Assembly (NCBI RefSeq): GCF_034522235.1
Contig: NZ_JAXHLN010000002.1
Coordinates: forward strand, 372,896-436,895
Origin: Thiohalophilus sp.
Lineage (GTDB): Bacteria > Pseudomonadota > Gammaproteobacteria > UBA6429 > Thiohalophilaceae
Direction of reading: 5' to 3'
Length of the DNA stretch: 64,000 nucleotides
Shown: positions 41,750-50,379 of the stretch, one piece after another
Position numbering within the stretch: the stretch's first letter is position 1
Layout of the letters: the number at the start of each line of letters is the position of its first letter
Made by a program: the position numbers and the translations under genes
The notes under the pieces: model-generated
What the model was told of the DNA's origin: nothing
Seen by the model: only the letters and a program-made list of their open reading frames with translations
Databases searched by the model: none

Positions 41750-43024
41750 TCAATCAGTCGTTTCTTCGATTAAGCGTCGCAGGGCCTGGATGACCTGCGG
41801 CGTATCCCATTCGATGGCGGCATTCACGCCGTAACGAATCCTGCCCTGGCCGTCGATGATATAGGTGGAAGGAAACGCCAGTACCTTCCAGCGCGCGGCT
41901 TCGGTGCCGTCGTGATCGATCAGCACCGGAAACTGTACATCCACCTTTTCCAGGAATTCCTTGACCTCGTCGGCCTGCTGGGCATAGTTGACCGAGATGA
42001 GCTCGAATGGTTCGTCCTCGAAATGCTGACGCAGACGATTCAGCGAGGGGATTTCCTCGACACAGGGCGGGCACCAGGTGGCCCAGAAATTGATGACCCG
42101 TACCTTGCCGGTGTAATCGTCAATACTATGTTGCCGGCCCCTGGCATCTTTCAGGTCCAGCGCCGGCGGGGACCAGTCGCCACGAAACGGCCTGAGACCA
42201 ATGTCCAGACCGAGCGGATCTTCCGCGGGTGCCGGCGTTTCTTCGCGCAGGGCGGCGACATGGTCGGGTTTGGGCAGTTTGTCCAGCAGAGAAATGGCGC
42301 GCAGGATTCGCGCCGGTGTCTGCTGCAGATGATCGAGCGTCGCCTCGGCCTTATCCTCTTCGTAAAACAGCGACGTGGCGCCGGGCATCATTTGCACGAA
42401 CACCTGGCTGCCGCCAAAACGCAATGCCGCGATCAGATCGTCAAGTTGGCCGCGGTTGCCATTGCGCGCGCTTTGCAGAATCATCAGCGGCATGTTGCTG
42501 GCGTAGGTTTCAGGCACATACTGAGGCGGCAGGCCCAGCGATGGAATTCCCTGATAGGTGTTGGGAGAGAACAGGATAGCGCCGAGCAGTGTCTGATCGC
42601 TCAGGTTTTTCCGCTGCCAGGCACGCATGCCGCGCAGGGCCAGAATCGCCCCGTAGGAATTACTGATCAATACGACCGGTTTACCGCTTCGGCGCTGGAC
42701 CTGTTCGATCAGGTTGGCGGGCAGCGTGGGATCGATCTGGCGGATACTGGCCGAGCCGCGGGGCAAGAACAAATTTTCCAACAGATCCACCTGCCAGGAT
42801 TCGATGCCCTGCTGTTGCAGACCCCGGGCGACCTGATCGTGGCGCAGGCCAAAACCGTTGCCCGGGGCAAACCACAGGGCCACCACCTCGCCCTCGGCGG
42901 GATACTGGCGCAGCTCGAGTTCCTGGTTCTGGACATTGAGCGTCAGGCGCGCCGGTTCGGCGGCAAGCGGCGACGCTGACGCAAAGAATAACAGCAGGAC
43001 AATCAGCTTCACGCGCAGCGACAC
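41750..43024 (-). CDS. Alpha/beta hydrolase-thioredoxin (TlpA-like) fusion, exported
   Basis: The 424-residue precursor has a signal peptide (LIVLLLFFASASPLAA). Residues about 25-250 look like an alpha/beta hydrolase: WFAPGNGFGLR at the first strand and the elbow SNSYGA with the nucleophile Ser. A linker follows, then a thioredoxin domain of TlpA/ResA type at about 275-420 with WATWCPPC (Cys318 and Cys321), the FPVLIDHDGTEA segment and the cis-Pro site (FPSTYIIDGQG). Two normally separate activities are joined in one periplasmic protein. The thioredoxin part probably reduces or oxidises thiols; the substrate of the hydrolase part is unknown. Confidence 0.83.
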   Translation of the reverse strand: MSLRVKLIVLLLFFASASPLAAEPARLTLNVQNQELELRQYPAEGEVVALWFAPGNGFGLRHDQVARGLQQQGIESWQVDLLENLFLPRGSASIRQIDPTLPANLIEQVQRRSGKPVVLISNSYGAILALRGMRAWQRKNLSDQTLLGAILFSPNTYQGIPSLGLPPQYVPETYASNMPLMILQSARNGNRGQLDDLIAALRFGGSQVFVQMMPGATSLFYEEDKAEATLDHLQQTPARILRAISLLDKLPKPDHVAALREETPAPAEDPLGLDIGLRPFRGDWSPPALDLKDARGRQHSIDDYTGKVRVINFWATWCPPCVEEIPSLNRLRQHFEDEPFELISVNYAQQADEVKEFLEKVDVQFPVLIDHDGTEAARWKVLAFPSTYIIDGQGRIRYGVNAAIEWDTPQVIQALRRLIEETTD

Positions 43025-44680: not shown

Positions 44681-44863
44681 GCCTGTGATTATAGAAACTC
44701 CGGCGGTAGAAGCGGGCAACCGTCCCGGGAACTGTGACTGCCGTCACCCAGATAATTGGCAACCGGTTGCAAGTTCTGGAGGTTGACTGAAAGCGTTTAG
44801 AATTCGAAAGCAGGTTTGTGACCCGGTTCCGGTTACAGCCGATATGGCGATACGGGTATCGCG

Positions 44864-45541
44864 TTATGCAGGCAACCGTTGTTCGGCCGTATTTTCCAAC
44901 CCGTGGAGTGTCTGCTCCAGCGCCTGTTGCAGGGGTTCCAGTTCGGTCATGCCGAGCTGGCGTTCGACATAACGAGGCTCGCCCACCGCGATGACAATGC
45001 GGGAAAAGGGCTTGGGAATGATAAAACGATCCCAGGAGGCCAGTTGCCAGTACCGGCTGGCTGCCCAGGAGATTGGCAGGATGGGGGCACCGCTCATCTG
45101 TGAGAGCATGAGCGCGCCGGGTTTGAACTTGTGAATCGGGCCGGTGGGTCCGTCGGAGGTGTTGACCGGGGAGATGCCTTCTTTGGTGATCAACTCATAC
45201 AGCTCTTTCATGGCCCGGGCACCGGTGCGGTTGCTGGAGCCACGAATCGCCCGCAATCCCCAGGATTCGGCAATTCTGGCGGGGACTTCACCGTCACGCG
45301 AGGGGCTGATGAGAAAACCGACCTTGAGGCCGCGTTGGCGCAGTTGCAGCATGTACCAGATGCCGAAAATATGGTGCTGATGCCAGTAACAGGGAATCAC
45401 CGGCTTGCCGTTGGCCAGAATCTGCTCGGCATGTTCCTCCCCAATCACCGCCTTGACCCGGCAGGTGAGCCACAACACATTCATCAGGCCCTTGAGCAAG
45501 GGTTTGGCAAACAGATACAGCAGACGGCGGCGTAGTTTCAT
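44864..45541 (-). CDS. DUF374 family lysophospholipid acyltransferase-like protein
   Basis: The 225-residue protein has a hydrophobic, basic N-terminus for membrane attachment. The DUF374 landmarks are visible: CYWHQHHIFG (WHxx catalytic region), SPSRDGEVPARIAESWG (SxDGE motif), IRGSSNRTGA and NTSDGPTGPIHKFKPG. The DUF374 family includes LpxJ, a late acyltransferase of lipid A in Campylobacter and Helicobacter. It probably transfers an acyl chain to a membrane lipid on the cytoplasmic face. It lies 197 bases downstream of the phosphopantetheinyl transferase gene on the same strand. Confidence 0.82.
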   Translation of the reverse strand: MKLRRRLLYLFAKPLLKGLMNVLWLTCRVKAVIGEEHAEQILANGKPVIPCYWHQHHIFGIWYMLQLRQRGLKVGFLISPSRDGEVPARIAESWGLRAIRGSSNRTGARAMKELYELITKEGISPVNTSDGPTGPIHKFKPGALMLSQMSGAPILPISWAASRYWQLASWDRFIIPKPFSRIVIAVGEPRYVERQLGMTELEPLQQALEQTLHGLENTAEQRLPA

Positions 45542-45738
45542 AACGGCTTATAGTGACAGGCGGATGCCGGCCAGTATAACGGTTTGGGGTACGACAACGC
45601 CATTGTGGCAGTTCAGTTCGCAAACAACACCAGAACGCGCAAATATAAATTAACCTGCGTAAACCGGAAGCCGGCTCTCGTATGTTCTACTGTTTTGAGC
45701 AAAACAGTTATTTGCGGCTATTTGCCTGCCTTTGGTGT

Positions 45739-46395
45739 TCATGTGCGGACTTGATCCGAATCGATCTGTTCGATTTCGAGCCGGGTTGACGACAGATCGG
45801 TGGCGATGTGACCGACGTAACCGTCGGCCAGAGACAGCGGGGTCAGGTACCAGGTTTTATCCGCGAAGTGGGCCTTGCCGTCGTGCAGTTCGACCTCGCG
45901 CAGCCGGGCGATGCCTTCCTGGCCATGGGCCTTGACCACGGCCTCTTTTTGTGTCCAGAAATCAAAAAACCGGTTCGGATCTGTCTCGCACTGGCGTGCC
46001 TGTGCCGGGGTCAGATATTTATGGATGACATCGCTTTTCAGTGGCCGAAACTGTTCCACATCGATGCCGATGCGCCCGTTACGCAGCGCCGCGGCGCAGA
46101 CCAGTTGACCCGAATGGCTGATATTGAAATCGGCGGGGAAGGCGGAGCCGGATTTGTGGGGACTGGCGAAGTCGACCGCCTCGAGGCTGAAATCGGCAAA
46201 ACCGAGGTCACGCATGGCCTGTTCCACCAGTCGCCAGCCAGCGGCTGACTGGACCCGGTTGGCGTGATGGCGGTGTTTGCCAATCTGGTCACGTTTACGG
46301 GCGGGAAGTTGAGCCAGCCACCGCTCCAGCGTCGCCGGGCTGATTTTCTCCGGATCGATATTCATATATAGTAGGCGGACTTCAGACTGGCTCAT
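45739..46395 (-). CDS. Sfp-type 4'-phosphopantetheinyl transferase
   Basis: The 218-residue enzyme, from the ATG at 46393-46395, has the Sfp-class motifs: FNISHSGQLV, GIDVEQF (metal-binding Asp) and FWTQKEAVVKA. It moves the phosphopantetheine arm from coenzyme A to carrier-protein serines. Sfp-type enzymes usually serve secondary-metabolite carriers, not fatty acid synthesis. It is divergent by 41 bases from a P450 gene and near an acyl-AMP ligase with a fused carrier domain, its likely client. Confidence 0.9.
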   Translation of the reverse strand: MSQSEVRLLYMNIDPEKISPATLERWLAQLPARKRDQIGKHRHHANRVQSAAGWRLVEQAMRDLGFADFSLEAVDFASPHKSGSAFPADFNISHSGQLVCAAALRNGRIGIDVEQFRPLKSDVIHKYLTPAQARQCETDPNRFFDFWTQKEAVVKAHGQEGIARLREVELHDGKAHFADKTWYLTPLSLADGYVGHIATDLSSTRLEIEQIDSDQVRT

Positions 46396-46436
46396 AATCA
46401 ACCCGTATCACGATTTTCCAACATTCAGGCAAGCGA

Positions 46437-47750
46437 ATGACGGCGACAGCACAGGGTTCAAAAAAATTGCCGCCCGGCCCGGCCCAGCCCTGCGATCTCA
46501 ATACCACACCGGAATCCTTTGACATTATCGCCGGGCTGATTGCCAAGTATGGCGATATCTGCCGGTTGACGTCCAGTGGCCGCAAGAGTGATGCCTATCT
46601 GGTCAATCATCCCGATTACCTCAAGCACATTCTGGTCAAGAATCATCAGAATTATACCAAAGGCGTGGGTTTCGATCGGGTCAAGATGTTGCTGGGCAAC
46701 GGGATTATTGTCAGTGACGGTCCATTCTGGCGTCGCCAGCGCCGAATGATCCAGCCGGCTTTCAGTCGCAAGGTAATCGCCGAGCTCTCCGATCAGATCA
46801 AACGTTGTAACCTGGAACGGCTCGACAGCTGGGAGGCGAAGACCGATCGTGGCGAACCGATCAATATCACCAGTGAGGCCAGTGAGCTGGCATTGCAGAT
46901 CGTTTTGCGATCCCTGTTCAGCGAGGACCTGGATCGGATCATCGCCGAGCAGGGCAGTAATCCGTTCTCGATCCTCACCGAGGAGATGACCCGGGATATG
47001 CAGCTGGTGATCAAGTTCCGGGCCCTGAGCAAAATCATTCTGGAAGTGATCGAACGGCGTCGGCGCGAGCAGCCCGAGCGGGTCGATTTTCTGGCCATGT
47101 TCATGGACTCGCGGGACAAGGAAACCGACGAGGCCATGAGCGACAGAGAATTGCTGGACGAGATCATGACCATGATCATTGCCGGGCACGAGACCAGTGC
47201 GATTACTCTCAACTGGGTCTGGTACTTCCTGGCCAGCTATCCCGAGGTCGAGCGCAAGCTGCATGCCGAGGTCGACGGGGCCGATTACGCGCAGATTCCC
47301 GGTTTTGATGATCTGGAACAGCTGCCCTACGTCAAGCAGGTGGTCGAAGAGGCGTTGCGCTATTATCCGCCGGTCTGGCTTTACACTCGCCGGGCCATCG
47401 AGGACGATCAGCTCGGCGACTATTTTGTGCCGGCCGGCACGGATATCTTTATTACACCCTATTTCCTGCATCGCCATCCCCGCTACTGGCCGCAGCCGGA
47501 AAAATTCGACCCGGAACGTTTTGCCGAGGAGAATATTCGCGAGCAGCACAAGCAGGCTTATATTCCCTTCTCTGCCGGGCCGCGGCGCTGCATCGGGGAT
47601 TTTTTTGCCACCGTCGAGATGCAGATACACTTCGGGCTGATGGCGCGAAAATTCCGCGTGCAGCTACTGGACGACAGCCCGCTTGAACTGGAGCCGGCGG
47701 TGAATCTGCGTAACAAGCAGCCCATTTATTTGCAACTGATACGTCGTTGA
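46437..47750 (+). CDS. Cytochrome P450
   Basis: The 437-residue protein shows the P450 signatures: the I-helix AGHETSAI (249-256), the ExxR motif (EALR), a PxRx region (FDPERFAEE) and the heme-binding loop FSAGPRRCIG with Cys385 as axial ligand. The general pattern resembles the fatty-acid-hydroxylase branch (CYP4/CYP102-like), not bacterial CYP153. No membrane anchor, ferredoxin or reductase gene is nearby, so electrons must come from a general source. It lies nine bases before the acyl-AMP ligase gene, so the substrate may be a carrier-bound acyl chain (inference). Confidence 0.92.
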   Translation: MTATAQGSKKLPPGPAQPCDLNTTPESFDIIAGLIAKYGDICRLTSSGRKSDAYLVNHPDYLKHILVKNHQNYTKGVGFDRVKMLLGNGIIVSDGPFWRRQRRMIQPAFSRKVIAELSDQIKRCNLERLDSWEAKTDRGEPINITSEASELALQIVLRSLFSEDLDRIIAEQGSNPFSILTEEMTRDMQLVIKFRALSKIILEVIERRRREQPERVDFLAMFMDSRDKETDEAMSDRELLDEIMTMIIAGHETSAITLNWVWYFLASYPEVERKLHAEVDGADYAQIPGFDDLEQLPYVKQVVEEALRYYPPVWLYTRRAIEDDQLGDYFVPAGTDIFITPYFLHRHPRYWPQPEKFDPERFAEENIREQHKQAYIPFSAGPRRCIGDFFATVEMQIHFGLMARKFRVQLLDDSPLELEPAVNLRNKQPIYLQLIRR

Positions 47751-47759
47751 AACAACCCC

Positions 47760-49721
47760 ATGCTGAATTATCAAACGCTTAACGAAGCCTTGATCGGCAA
47801 TGCTTCCGATCAGCGCACTGTTACCTATATCGAGGGCCGGGACAGCGAACAGGTCATTAGCTATCGCCAATTGCACGAACAGGCCCTGCGAATGCTGGGT
47901 CGACTGCAGACGGCGGGCTTAAAAGCCGGTGATGAGCTGATCATCCTGACCCGCAGTAACCCCGATTTCATCGACGCCTTCTGGGGCGCCGTGCTCGGCG
48001 GCATTGTGCCGGTGCCGGTGGCTGTCGGGATCAGTGACGAGCACCGCTCCAAGCTCTACAAGATATTCAACAAACTGGAGCGGCCCTGGCTATTTACCGA
48101 TGCGGACAATCTCGAACGTCTGAAGAAGTTTGCCGAGGCGCACGAGATGGCTTCCGACTACGCATTTGTTGAACAGCGGACCCTGTTGCAGGATCAACTC
48201 GATCAGCCTCATGAGGCAGGCCAACCCCATACGCCGCAACCGGAGGATGTGGCGTTTATCCAGTTTTCCTCTGGTTCCACCAGCGATCCCAAGGGCGTGG
48301 TGCTGACCCATCGCAATATTCTGACCAACCTCAATGCGATCGCCGAAGGGGCCGGTTATACCGATACCGATATCAGCCTGAGCTGGATGCCCCTGACCCA
48401 CGATATGGGACTGATTGGCTTTCATCTAAACATGGTCGCCTGCAACATGAGCCAGTGCCTGATTCCCACCGATCTGTTCAGCCGCCGACCGTTGATCTGG
48501 TGGCAAAAAGCCAGCGAGAAAAAGGCCACCGTGCTCTGCTCGCCCAATTTCGGCTACAAGCATTTTCTCAAGTCGCTGGGTGACAAACAGCTCGAGAATG
48601 TGGATTTATCTCATGTGCGGGTACTGTACAACGGTGCCGAGCCGATTTCCGTCACGCTGATCGAACAGTTTCTGGAAGTGATGCAGGATTACGGCCTCCG
48701 GCGTGAGGTCATGTTTACCGTCTACGGCCTGGCCGAGGCGACGCTGGCGGTGGCGTTCCCGTCTCAAGGGGAGATGTACCGCGCTGTGCATCTGGATCGG
48801 CACAAGCTGCGGCTCGATGATCAGGTCACCTTTGTCGATACAACCCATCCCGATGCGGTCAGTTTTGCCATCGAAGGGCCGCCGGTGCGGGATATGCAGA
48901 TCAAAATCACCGACGAGCGCAACGGGACGTTACCCGAAAATCATATTGGGGATGTCCAGATCAAGGGGCCCAGTGTCACCGCCGGTTACTATCGCAACGA
49001 GGCGGCCAATCATGTGGCCCTGACCGGCGATGGCTGGCTGAATACCGGCGATCAGGGGTTTCTTACCGAGAATAACGAACTGGTGATCACCGGGCGCACC
49101 AAGGAGATCATCTTTGCCAATGGCCTGAATTACTATCCCCACGATCTCGAGAACATCGCCCTGCAGTGCGAGCAACTGGAACTGGGCAAGGTCGTCGCCT
49201 ACGGTGTGCGCCAGCCGGATGAGCAGGAAGACGAACTGTTAATCTTTATTCTGTATCGCGGCGACCTCGCCGGGTTCCTGCCCCTGGCAAGGGAAGTGAC
49301 CCATATTATCAACGAGCAGACCGGGCTGGATATTGCGCATGTTATCCCGGTCAAACGCATACCCAAAACCACCAGCGGCAAACTGCAACGCCGGTTGCTG
49401 GGTGACGACTATCTCAAGGGGGAATACGACAGCGTGCTGCAGGCGTTGCAGCAGCAGGATAATGCCCTCCACGCCGGTGAGGATGACGATCTGAATCCCA
49501 CTGAGCGTGAAATAAAAACGATTTGCGACGAGGTGCTGACCGACAAGCCGCTGCACCTGCACGATAACTTCTTCGATGTCGGCATCAGCTCGCTGGCCCT
49601 GGCCGAGATTCATCAGCGTATCGACGACAAACATCCCGGGCTGATCGACGTGGTGGATCTGTTCGAATACCAGACCATCGCCGAGCTTGCGGCATTCATG
49701 GACCAGAAACGAGCGGGCTAG
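47760..49721 (+). CDS. Fatty acyl-AMP ligase fused to an acyl carrier domain
   Basis: The 653-residue protein has an adenylation domain at about 1-565. It has the P-loop SSGSTSDPKGV, the FAAL-type motif SWMPLTHDMGLIG and the C-terminal GRTKEIIFANG and KTTSGKLQRR segments. A carrier domain at about 575-650 has the phosphopantetheine site FFDVGISSLAL, with Ser611 as acceptor. FAAL enzymes activate fatty acids as acyl adenylates and load them on carrier proteins. The fusion allows loading in cis, and the neighbouring phosphopantetheinyl transferase should activate the carrier. No ketosynthase, thioesterase or condensation domain follows, so the acyl chain is probably modified, not extended. Confidence 0.92.
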   Translation: MLNYQTLNEALIGNASDQRTVTYIEGRDSEQVISYRQLHEQALRMLGRLQTAGLKAGDELIILTRSNPDFIDAFWGAVLGGIVPVPVAVGISDEHRSKLYKIFNKLERPWLFTDADNLERLKKFAEAHEMASDYAFVEQRTLLQDQLDQPHEAGQPHTPQPEDVAFIQFSSGSTSDPKGVVLTHRNILTNLNAIAEGAGYTDTDISLSWMPLTHDMGLIGFHLNMVACNMSQCLIPTDLFSRRPLIWWQKASEKKATVLCSPNFGYKHFLKSLGDKQLENVDLSHVRVLYNGAEPISVTLIEQFLEVMQDYGLRREVMFTVYGLAEATLAVAFPSQGEMYRAVHLDRHKLRLDDQVTFVDTTHPDAVSFAIEGPPVRDMQIKITDERNGTLPENHIGDVQIKGPSVTAGYYRNEAANHVALTGDGWLNTGDQGFLTENNELVITGRTKEIIFANGLNYYPHDLENIALQCEQLELGKVVAYGVRQPDEQEDELLIFILYRGDLAGFLPLAREVTHIINEQTGLDIAHVIPVKRIPKTTSGKLQRRLLGDDYLKGEYDSVLQALQQQDNALHAGEDDDLNPTEREIKTICDEVLTDKPLHLHDNFFDVGISSLALAEIHQRIDDKHPGLIDVVDLFEYQTIAELAAFMDQKRAG

Positions 49722-49794
49722 ACGCTTCCCCGTCCCGGACAGCACCCCGGCGGACGCCGAAATGATCGATGCCTCTGGCGGCATCACTTCTATA

Positions 49795-50379
49795 CTAAGG
49801 CGACTGATCCCGGCGCCAGCTATCGGCCTGGGTCCGGATCAGGTCGCTCAATAACTGCGCCGCCGGCCCGGGGTGTTCCTGGCCGAAGGCCAGATACAGA
49901 TGGGTGCGGTAGATCTGGCCGCTGGCCAGCGGCAGAGGCAGTAACTGGCCATTTTCCAGTTCGGCCTGAATCCGATGGCGGGGCAACCAGCCGTAACCCA
50001 GTCCGTGGCGAATCGTGGTGACTGCGGTGTCGATACTGCTGACGGTCCAGCGGTGTTCGGCCCCCAGCCAGCCAAAGTCGCGCGGCGCCTGCTGGCCGGA
50101 GTCCTTTACCACCACCTGCATCTCCTTTTCCAGATCGGCCATTTTCAGCTGGCGGCCGAGCCCGTGCAGGGGATGCCCGGGATGGGCGACGGCCACAAAT
50201 TCAATTTCCAGCAGCGGATCGGCCAGACTGGCCGACGGCAGCTCGGCCCCGATGATCAGATCCGCGTGATCCTGCTCCAGCGCTTCCAGCGCGCCGGAGA
50301 GCACCACTTCCTCCAGCAGCACCCGGGTGCCGCGATCCTGTGGGGCAAAGGCGTGCAGGGCATTGAGTAACCGATAAAT
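49795..50379 (-). pseudogene. LysR-family regulator lacking its DNA-binding half
   Basis: The open frame from 50379 to the stop at 49795 reads as a LysR effector-binding domain (LLNALHAFAPQDRGTR, EEVVLSGALEALEQ, HADLIIGAELPS). The helix-turn-helix and linker are missing and a TAA stop at 50380-50382 closes the frame. Homologous regulators sit divergently next to doxX, yqjG and pirin genes, exactly what follows here, so the regulator of this operon has been lost or truncated. Without its DNA-binding domain it cannot act as a regulator. Confidence 0.75.

Follow-up and report, generated by a model that had tools for sequence, protein, structure and literature searches.

A conserved FAAL-carrier, cytochrome P450 and DUF374 acyltransferase unit as a candidate branch of late lipid A acylation

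Which lipid would receive an acyl chain that appears to be activated, held on a carrier, oxidized and transferred by the products of four adjacent genes? The locus that raises this question lies in a stretch of 64,000 nucleotides from Thiohalophilus sp., which we call the window. A first-pass annotation had claimed four ORFs with the domains listed here, and all of them are found by Pfam.

44864-45541, minus strand: DUF374 (LpxJ-family) acyltransferase, 225 amino acids, core of the unit (DUF374, 4.4e-19)
45739-46395, minus strand: Sfp-type 4'-phosphopantetheinyl transferase (PPTase), 218 amino acids, a frequent, inconstant member (ACPS, 1.9e-10)
46396-46436, no strand: divergent start region of PPTase and P450, 41 bases between two ATGs, read from the sequence
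46437-47750, plus strand: cytochrome P450, 437 amino acids, putative chain-oxidizing accessory (p450, 3.9e-86)
47760-49721, plus strand: FAAL-carrier (fatty acyl-AMP ligase with acyl carrier domain), 653 amino acids (AMP-binding, 1.1e-56; PP-binding, 3.3e-10)

As had also been claimed, Pfam detects neither ketosynthase nor condensation nor thioesterase domains in the four proteins, and it detects none in the scanned flanking proteins of the window. The 41-base region had been read as a promoter region; the divergent gap is there, but a sigma-70 scan of 44700-50000 placed no site in it (the sole site, at 47308-47335, compares with 2.9 expected by chance), and the promoter and repeat scans of the locus yielded nothing above chance or useful. 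An alternative TTG start of the PPTase is possible at 46401.

The P450, FAAL-carrier and DUF374 genes are a conserved unit. Among 58 sampled genomes, 37 of them in the family of the window, genes of the window type for these three proteins occur in an identical set of 19 family genomes; the three are adjacent in the 18 other unit-bearing family genomes, with 51-65% protein identity to those of the window. This joint presence in 19 of 58 genomes, together with the conserved adjacency, rules out a chance neighborhood. The synteny that had been proposed as a check is thus seen in 18 further family genomes, and it is seen in the class-wide sample as well, the unit being found in 15 of the sampled family-level groups. 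A lipid-A-type acyltransferase adjoins the FAAL in all 39 readable loci of the FAAL subfamily, family and class-wide sample combined (outside the family, 20 of 24 genomes were counted, after G152, with a FAAL fused to a polyketide synthase (PKS), and G346, G301 and G240, with contig ends, were dropped). This acyltransferase is a DUF374 protein in 36 loci, and in the remaining three (G053, G191 and G378) its place beside the FAAL is taken by a PF03279 protein, of the LpxL family. Since the P450 is absent from 4 of the 39 loci and the PPTase is patchy (present in 9 of 19 family loci), the core consists of the FAAL-carrier and the acyltransferase; the four-gene locus originally described stands in the linkage of P450, FAAL and DUF374, but its P450 is an accessory and its PPTase an inconstant member. 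Pairwise distances of P450, FAAL and DUF374 correlate with one another at 0.82-0.89, versus 0.36-0.57 with LpxL. The G346 genome, which is 78% complete and has contig ends at this point, contains the P450, the PPTase and a partial FAAL, and a DUF374 of this type was not found in it. An apparent P450-FAAL fusion in G007 (an ORF of 1106 amino acids) was rejected, because the two genes lie in different frames and the long ORF is therefore an extension.

The FAAL-carrier has the features expected of an enzyme that loads a carrier rather than CoA. Its best match among solved structures is McyG (4r0m, residues 3-649), and the known FAALs 3kxw and 3pbk align with it in one stretch. The FAAL-specific insertion, on which the first-pass annotation had made the assignment depend, is present at about residues 328-370, where 3kxw and 3pbk align without a long gap, while McyG is short of about 21 of these residues and the alignments of several CoA ligases break into two stretches. 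The features by which EcFAAL rejects CoA are W224, M231, F279 and the helix T252-R258 (PMC8460268); based on the 3pbk alignment, in which chain numbers are one below those of that source, their counterparts are W209, M216, F264 and TDLFSRR at 237-243. All 17 aligned sequences, the window included, have Ser611 of the carrier domain, the predicted pantetheine site, in agreement with its earlier designation. In domain order, CoA-rejecting features and pantetheine serine, the protein resembles the FAAL-ACP didomain starters HapA, NocH and AmbG, as far as these are described in the sources available; unlike them, it has no PKS or NRPS partner in the window, and its partner is instead a lipid-A-type acyltransferase. 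We rejected an ordinary polyketide or peptide starter, as only one FAAL of the same subfamily, that of G152, was found fused to a PKS module.

The P450 and PPTase also retain their signatures. Cys385, the heme cysteine of the P450 and a residue already named in the first-pass annotation, does not vary across the 17 aligned sequences, that of the window among them, and neither do the ExxR residues E305 and R308 and the acid-Thr pair of the I helix, E252 and T253; when the genome of the window was searched with this P450, the only match was the protein itself. Sfp-type PPTases are characterized by the motifs GxDxE and WTxxEAxxK, and the PPTase carries both, along with the ACPS domain, with G110, D112, E114, W147, E151 and K155 invariant in 10 of 10 aligned sequences. 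The PPTase is intact in a sister species that has lost the rest of the unit.

The DUF374 protein carries the LpxJ signature. The domain scores 68.3 bits against a Pfam cut-off of 26.8. LpxJ has the same domain, and its essential residues, in R. typhi numbering, are W60, H61, D86, D132, W172 and D173 in the available text of PMC6148475; pairing by order and spacing, rather than by alignment of the R. typhi protein, places W53, H54, D83, D130, W170 and D171 opposite them, with steps of 1, 29, 47, 40 and 1 residues versus 1, 25, 46, 40 and 1. All six are invariant in 16 of 16 aligned sequences. Like LpxJ as described there, the protein lacks the HX4D motif of glycerolipid acyltransferases at its active His and is an apparent stand-in for LpxM. 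In a tree of DUF374 proteins (those shorter than 170 amino acids dropped, and the window's own protein absent), the FAAL-linked members cluster at 99/99 support, and 39 of the 41 members of this group are FAAL-linked, the other two (G122 and G309) being without this FAAL nearby. Unlike LpxJ, the DUF374 of the window is tied to its own acyl-activating enzyme and carrier, and usually to a P450; neither this FAAL nor this P450 was found near any of 18 other DUF374 loci examined. One of these, L193, has a weak match to an acyl-activating enzyme, 81 bits versus at least 560 for the FAAL subfamily where at least two-thirds of the gene is read.

In the family, an intact LpxM-clade or '114-type' LpxL2 enzyme is found in 0 of 19 genomes with the unit versus 13 of 18 without it; the strongest P value comes from clades grouped after inspection of the tree, and the Fisher test ignores relatedness. 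Replacement is not strict, because three of the 19 unit-bearing genomes (G015, G024 and G036) retain another full-length second PF03279 enzyme. PF03279 proteins of weak score (27-68 bits, for example L112) were excluded from counts of second LpxL-type enzymes, and a second PF03279 match in G009 that carries a stop was counted as absent; including it instead gives P = 2.3e-4 when second enzymes of any kind are compared. Between sister species, unit and second acyltransferase show reciprocal loss: the sister species has lost the unit and kept two PF03279-type enzymes, and the genome of the window has kept the unit together with a gutted copy of one of these two. Of six sister contrasts, three are exchanges, one is a swap to an ordinary DUF374, and two, involving incomplete genomes, are neither.

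We think that the locus is probably an alternative late-acylation branch in the synthesis of lipid A, or of a close glycolipid. The FAAL domain would convert a free fatty acid to an acyl-adenylate and pass the chain to the fused carrier domain, which would be armed by the PPTase of the locus or by another of the cell. The P450, where present, would oxidize the chain, most likely on the carrier, and the DUF374 enzyme would transfer it to lipid A in the slot filled in relatives by LpxM or a second LpxL-type enzyme, with the primary LpxL retained beside the unit. The sequences show four enzyme types with intact signatures, their linkage, the exchange of acyltransferase families and, in this family, the exclusion of LpxM-type enzymes. 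A route that runs from activation through carrier loading to a transfer step catalyzed by a lipid-A-type acyltransferase has good support; the acceptor, the order of oxidation and loading, and the position and kind of oxidation are what we infer. The first-pass annotation had named lipid A or a phospholipid as acceptor. Lipid A is favored, because of the exchange of DUF374 for PF03279 and the exclusion of LpxM-type enzymes, and the phospholipid is correspondingly less so. More tentatively, we extend this reading to a second, widespread pathway that completes lipid A acylation, in which an adenylated, carrier-held and P450-oxidized chain is attached by a specialized LpxJ clade that has displaced LpxM, so that the outer membrane would contain lipid A chains oxidized by a P450.

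It is unlikely, though worth weighing, that the unit builds another outer-membrane glycolipid, aryl-polyene-like or capsule-anchor-like, that is acylated by the DUF374 or PF03279 enzyme. PF03279-type enzymes acylate other glycolipids too, and those of G053, G191 and G378 form a separate long-branched group. A single ORF of G292 encodes both the DUF374 and an ApeI-like dehydratase, and its neighbors are a glycosyltransferase, a ketosynthase and a protein of the PF03279 family; in G053 the unit is followed by a glycosyltransferase and a PMT-type protein. In the available text of PMC8253772, aryl polyene clusters comprise ketosynthases, dehydratases, their own carriers and transporter genes, and the acyltransferases ApeD and ApeJ, with the anchor unknown; a dedicated hydroxyacyltransferase serves the Vi glycolipid anchor (PMC9597891, in part). 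However, G292 is the only annotated locus with aryl-polyene-like neighbors, and no aryl polyene cluster genes are found among the 15 proteins scanned in the window (38.3-52.7 kb). The flanks differ between loci, falling into different sets, and in six Pfam-scanned loci (G000, G005, G020, G121, G278 and G213) they are housekeeping or unrelated genes, such as those for sugar-phosphate enzymes, tRNA synthetases, SUF, kinases and DoxX. Moreover, another glycolipid leaves the exclusion of LpxM-type enzymes unexplained.

It is improbable that the DUF374 step makes a phospholipid, or another membrane lipid, that carries an oxidized acyl chain. DUF374 resembles the wider lysophospholipid acyltransferases, but the LpxJ signature is complete, HX4D is absent at the active His, and the domain that replaces DUF374, PF03279, is a lipid A acyltransferase family. 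Sphingolipid synthesis in some Proteobacteria likewise devotes its own carrier and acyl-activating enzyme to one membrane lipid; unlike here, the acyl user is serine palmitoyltransferase, and a P450 goes unmentioned in the available part of that source (PMC9386255). Least probable, and very much so, is a small secreted natural product, a P450-oxidized fatty acid or lipid with DUF374 as mere release step. Most FAAL-carrier didomains do act as starters of polyketide or peptide synthesis (PMC11837247, in part), the FAAL of G152 forms one protein with a PKS module, a DUF374 domain terminates an NRPS in G008, the unit of G202 is followed by a FabH-like gene, and G292 has a ketosynthase nearby. However, the unit and the scanned flanking proteins of the window lack ketosynthase, condensation and thioesterase domains, and a lipid-A-type acyltransferase is paired with the FAAL in every readable locus.

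Lipid A acyl chains are normally drawn from the main acyl-ACP pool of the cell. A late-acylation branch with a separately activated, P450-tailored chain would, if true, be a new means of altering both the packing of the outer membrane and the LPS portion sensed by hosts; it would open P450 chemistry on lipid A to testing, extend the roles of FAALs beyond the synthesis of polyketides and peptides, and represent an uncharacterized mode of decorating the Gram-negative surface, probably at lipid A. No description of this gene unit was found in titles and abstract openings of openly licensed PMC literature. A known parallel in lipid A synthesis is AcpXL-LpxXL of rhizobia and Agrobacterium, in which a dedicated carrier and a late acyltransferase add a special, very-long chain to lipid A (PMC11901934, in part). 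In that system, as far as the source goes, fabZ and fabF elongation genes accompany a separate carrier gene, whereas here the FAAL fused to the carrier would adenylate a free fatty acid and a P450 is present, and neither a carrier gene of that type nor fabZ or fabF is present among the same 15 scanned window proteins.

P450BioI is a P450 that acts on carrier-bound acyl chains, and the P450 of the window may share its substrate logic. The best 50 structure matches listed for the predicted P450 model belong to other CYP families (CYP184A1, CYP102, CYP120A1, CYP97 and CYP3A4), and a P450BioI-like family is not among them, which does not in itself exclude a role in biotin synthesis. Within those 50 matches, the closest structures are CYP184A1 and CYP102, and CYP184A1 has also been solved with oleate.

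The first-pass annotation had proposed a possible lipid-tailoring locus of four genes, and its description of each agrees with the open reading frames and their Pfam support:

44864-45541, minus strand, DUF374 acyltransferase (Pfam)
45739-46395, minus strand, Sfp-type phosphopantetheinyl transferase, PPTase (Pfam)
46437-47750, plus strand, P450 (Pfam)
47760-49721, plus strand, fatty acyl-AMP ligase fused to an acyl carrier domain, FAAL-carrier (Pfam)

The signature residues of all four proteins are invariant among relatives, and this P450, used as a query, matched nothing else in the genome the window comes from. In a sample of 58 genomes, including the window's and comprising 37 of its family, we find that strong matches to the P450, the DUF374 protein and the FAAL pick out an identical set of 19 family members; G053, from another family, has the P450 and FAAL without a DUF374 of the unit type. 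The three-gene arrangement of the window is present in all 19 (in G021, G027 and G036 the contig ends within the FAAL), with the PPTase between DUF374 and P450 in nine, and the same three genes occur on metagenome contigs L021-L023, with DUF374 cut in L021.

The genes flanking the unit are of several different kinds across genomes. The flanking proteins covered by Pfam scans have housekeeping or unrelated functions: G005 has sugar-phosphate enzymes and tRNA synthetases, G020 a transporter and an exonuclease, G121 SUF genes and G278 a kinase-caspase protein, and the window's unit is surrounded by NnrS, DoxX, GST and pirin. By protein distances the unit evolves as one block, because pairwise distances of the P450, FAAL and DUF374 correlate mutually at r of 0.82-0.89 (15 genomes) and only at 0.36-0.57 with those of the host LpxL (14 genomes), and the three unit proteins still correlate at 0.85 once LpxL is regressed out. 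Two fusions were noted near units: a protein kinase domain joined to a caspase-like peptidase domain in G278 (L077, 5345-7930) and, at 41750-43024 of the window, a protein whose first half matches alpha/beta-hydrolases just under the cut-off, joined to a TlpA/ResA-like thioredoxin domain.

Across a class-wide sample of 369 genomes, a unit-type P450 (>430 bits) occurs in 20, all 20 of which also have a FAAL of the unit's subfamily, and 17 of which have a DUF374 above 170 bits (absent from G053, G191 and G346). Genomes with a hit in the FAAL search numbered 27, of which three belong to the family and 24 do not; removal of G152 (fused to a PKS) and of G346, G301 and G240 (contig ends) left 20 readable non-family loci. 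A lipid-A-type acyltransferase adjoins the FAAL in every one of these, 17 being DUF374 and three PF03279 (LpxL family) proteins, which replace DUF374 in G053, G191 and G378. The core of the unit is, as judged from gene content, the FAAL-carrier and the acyltransferase, with the P450 as a common tailoring partner, because in the family and class combined the FAAL-acyltransferase pairing holds at 39/39 loci (15 family-level groups) and the P450 is present at 35/39 (12 groups). The P450 is absent in G335, G202, G231 and G378, and in the first three FAAL and DUF374 remain divergent neighbours despite its absence. DUF374 occurs as tandem pairs in two genomes (G206 and G313); two diverged tandem copies adjoin the same FAAL at L090 (5717-7321) and L091 (12436-14072). 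In G202, which lacks the P450, the gene after the FAAL-carrier encodes a FabH-like ketosynthase III (L101, 11330-12298), and L108 (2085-9641) encodes a same-subfamily FAAL joined to a PKS module (KS, AT, DH and KR domains, two carriers).

The window FAAL aligns to known FAALs across the entire ligase part and has the FAAL insertion, the W/M/F residues and the CoA-excluding helix; these residues and helix exclude CoA in FAALs, according to an excerpt of PMC8460268. Like McyG, it has a C-terminal carrier. The P450 was modelled with AlphaFold (mean pLDDT 83.6, with residues 80-94 weak). Among the structural matches listed, the model's nearest are CYP184A1 (a structure with oleic acid also exists), CYP102, CYP120A1 and CYP97, as well as CYP3A4, at Z 35.6-37.1 and 21-31% identity, with many rows tied within one Z unit; these predicted likenesses would fit a long-chain or lipid substrate.

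An excerpt of PMC6148475 reports that W60, H61, D86, D132, W172 and D173 of R. typhi LpxJ, of the DUF374 family, were essential on testing, and that LpxJ homologues lack the HX4D motif. The DUF374 protein of the window (ACYLTRANSFERASE) and all 15 relatives have W53, H54, D83, D130, W170 and D171, spaced nearly as in LpxJ. In a midpoint-rooted tree of 60 DUF374 rows, a 41-row group (99/99) holds all 39 unit-locus rows plus G122 and G309; the unit label requires three changes, versus 17.7 when shuffled. No unit-type FAAL or P450 was found near the 18 other DUF374 loci examined. Two DUF374 fusions were seen: a 2864-aa synthetase in G008, a family member without the unit (L093, 3135-11729), with FAAL, acyl-CoA dehydrogenase, luciferase-like monooxygenase, condensation and adenylation domains and two carriers, ending in a DUF374 domain at its C-terminus; and an ORF joining DUF374 to an ApeI-like dehydratase (L084, 10428-15183), beside a glycosyltransferase, a PF03279 protein and a ketosynthase.

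We searched the 58 genomes for PF03279 and built a tree from the fetched proteins together with LpxL and LpxM of E. coli. An LpxL orthologue is present in 32 of the 37 family members. A second late acyltransferase belonging to either the LpxM clade or the '114-type' LpxL2 clade occurs in 0/19 members with the unit versus 13/18 without (Fisher P = 2.4e-6), and in 0/13 versus 10/11 at completeness of at least 90% (P = 5.6e-6), with clades grouped post hoc after tree inspection, the position of E. coli LpxM depending on a long branch, and the Fisher test ignoring relatedness. For any second PF03279 enzyme the counts are 3/19 versus 13/18 (P = 8.3e-4), and 3/13 versus 10/11 at the same completeness (P = 1.3e-3). 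Among six well-supported sister contrasts readable in the LpxL part of the tree, G000/G001 (the window's genome and its sister species), G034/G013 and G002/G008 exchange the unit for a second enzyme; G024/G029 trades it for an ordinary DUF374, with another second enzyme retained in G024; G019/G032 and G014,G025/G035 make neither exchange (G032 is 86% and G035 83% complete). In the window's genome LpxL and the Kdo transferase WaaA form a single 735-aa fusion protein (L110, 312-2519, own genome C2), and across the family LpxL repeatedly lies in ORFs of 700-800 aa. A divergent, weakly scoring PF03279 paralogue of ~300 aa also occurs there (L112, 867-1763, own genome C3), with similar weak matches in members both with and without the unit.

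The simplest account of these patterns is that the unit carries out a late acylation of lipid A by an alternative route, using its own activated, usually oxidised chain. The sequences show the enzyme types, their linkage, the swap between acyltransferase families and, within this family of bacteria, the exclusion of LpxM-type enzymes; that lipid A is the acceptor, that the chain is oxidised and at which step this happens are inferred, and the P450 may oxidise either the free acid or the carrier-bound chain. The component enzymes are of known kinds; no description of the FAAL-carrier/P450/lipid-A-type acyltransferase combination was found in the titles and abstract openings of the literature searched, and a 2025 review of FAALs never mentions P450 in its main text and contains 'lipid a' once (word-start match).

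The sister species G001 resembles a natural knockout: its PPTase is intact (75% identical to the window's), the P450 is reduced to residues 1-66 and the DUF374 to residues 145-222 with a stop, and no unit-type FAAL was found in its genome. Two main deletions, to the left and right of the PPTase, would fit the alignment of the two DNAs. This species has two full-length second LpxL-type enzymes, L114 and L115; the window genome's L114 orthologue is shortened to 176 aa, its middle part with the HLGNWE motif gone (possibly an assembly error), and no L115 orthologue was found among that genome's PF03279 matches. Each species has lost the member of an apparently redundant pair that the other retains. 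Just downstream of the FAAL gene in the window (49795-50370) lies a LysR-type regulator without its DNA-binding part; the regulator is whole in the sister species (about 296 aa), and the alignment suggests that ~370 bases were lost from the window's gene.
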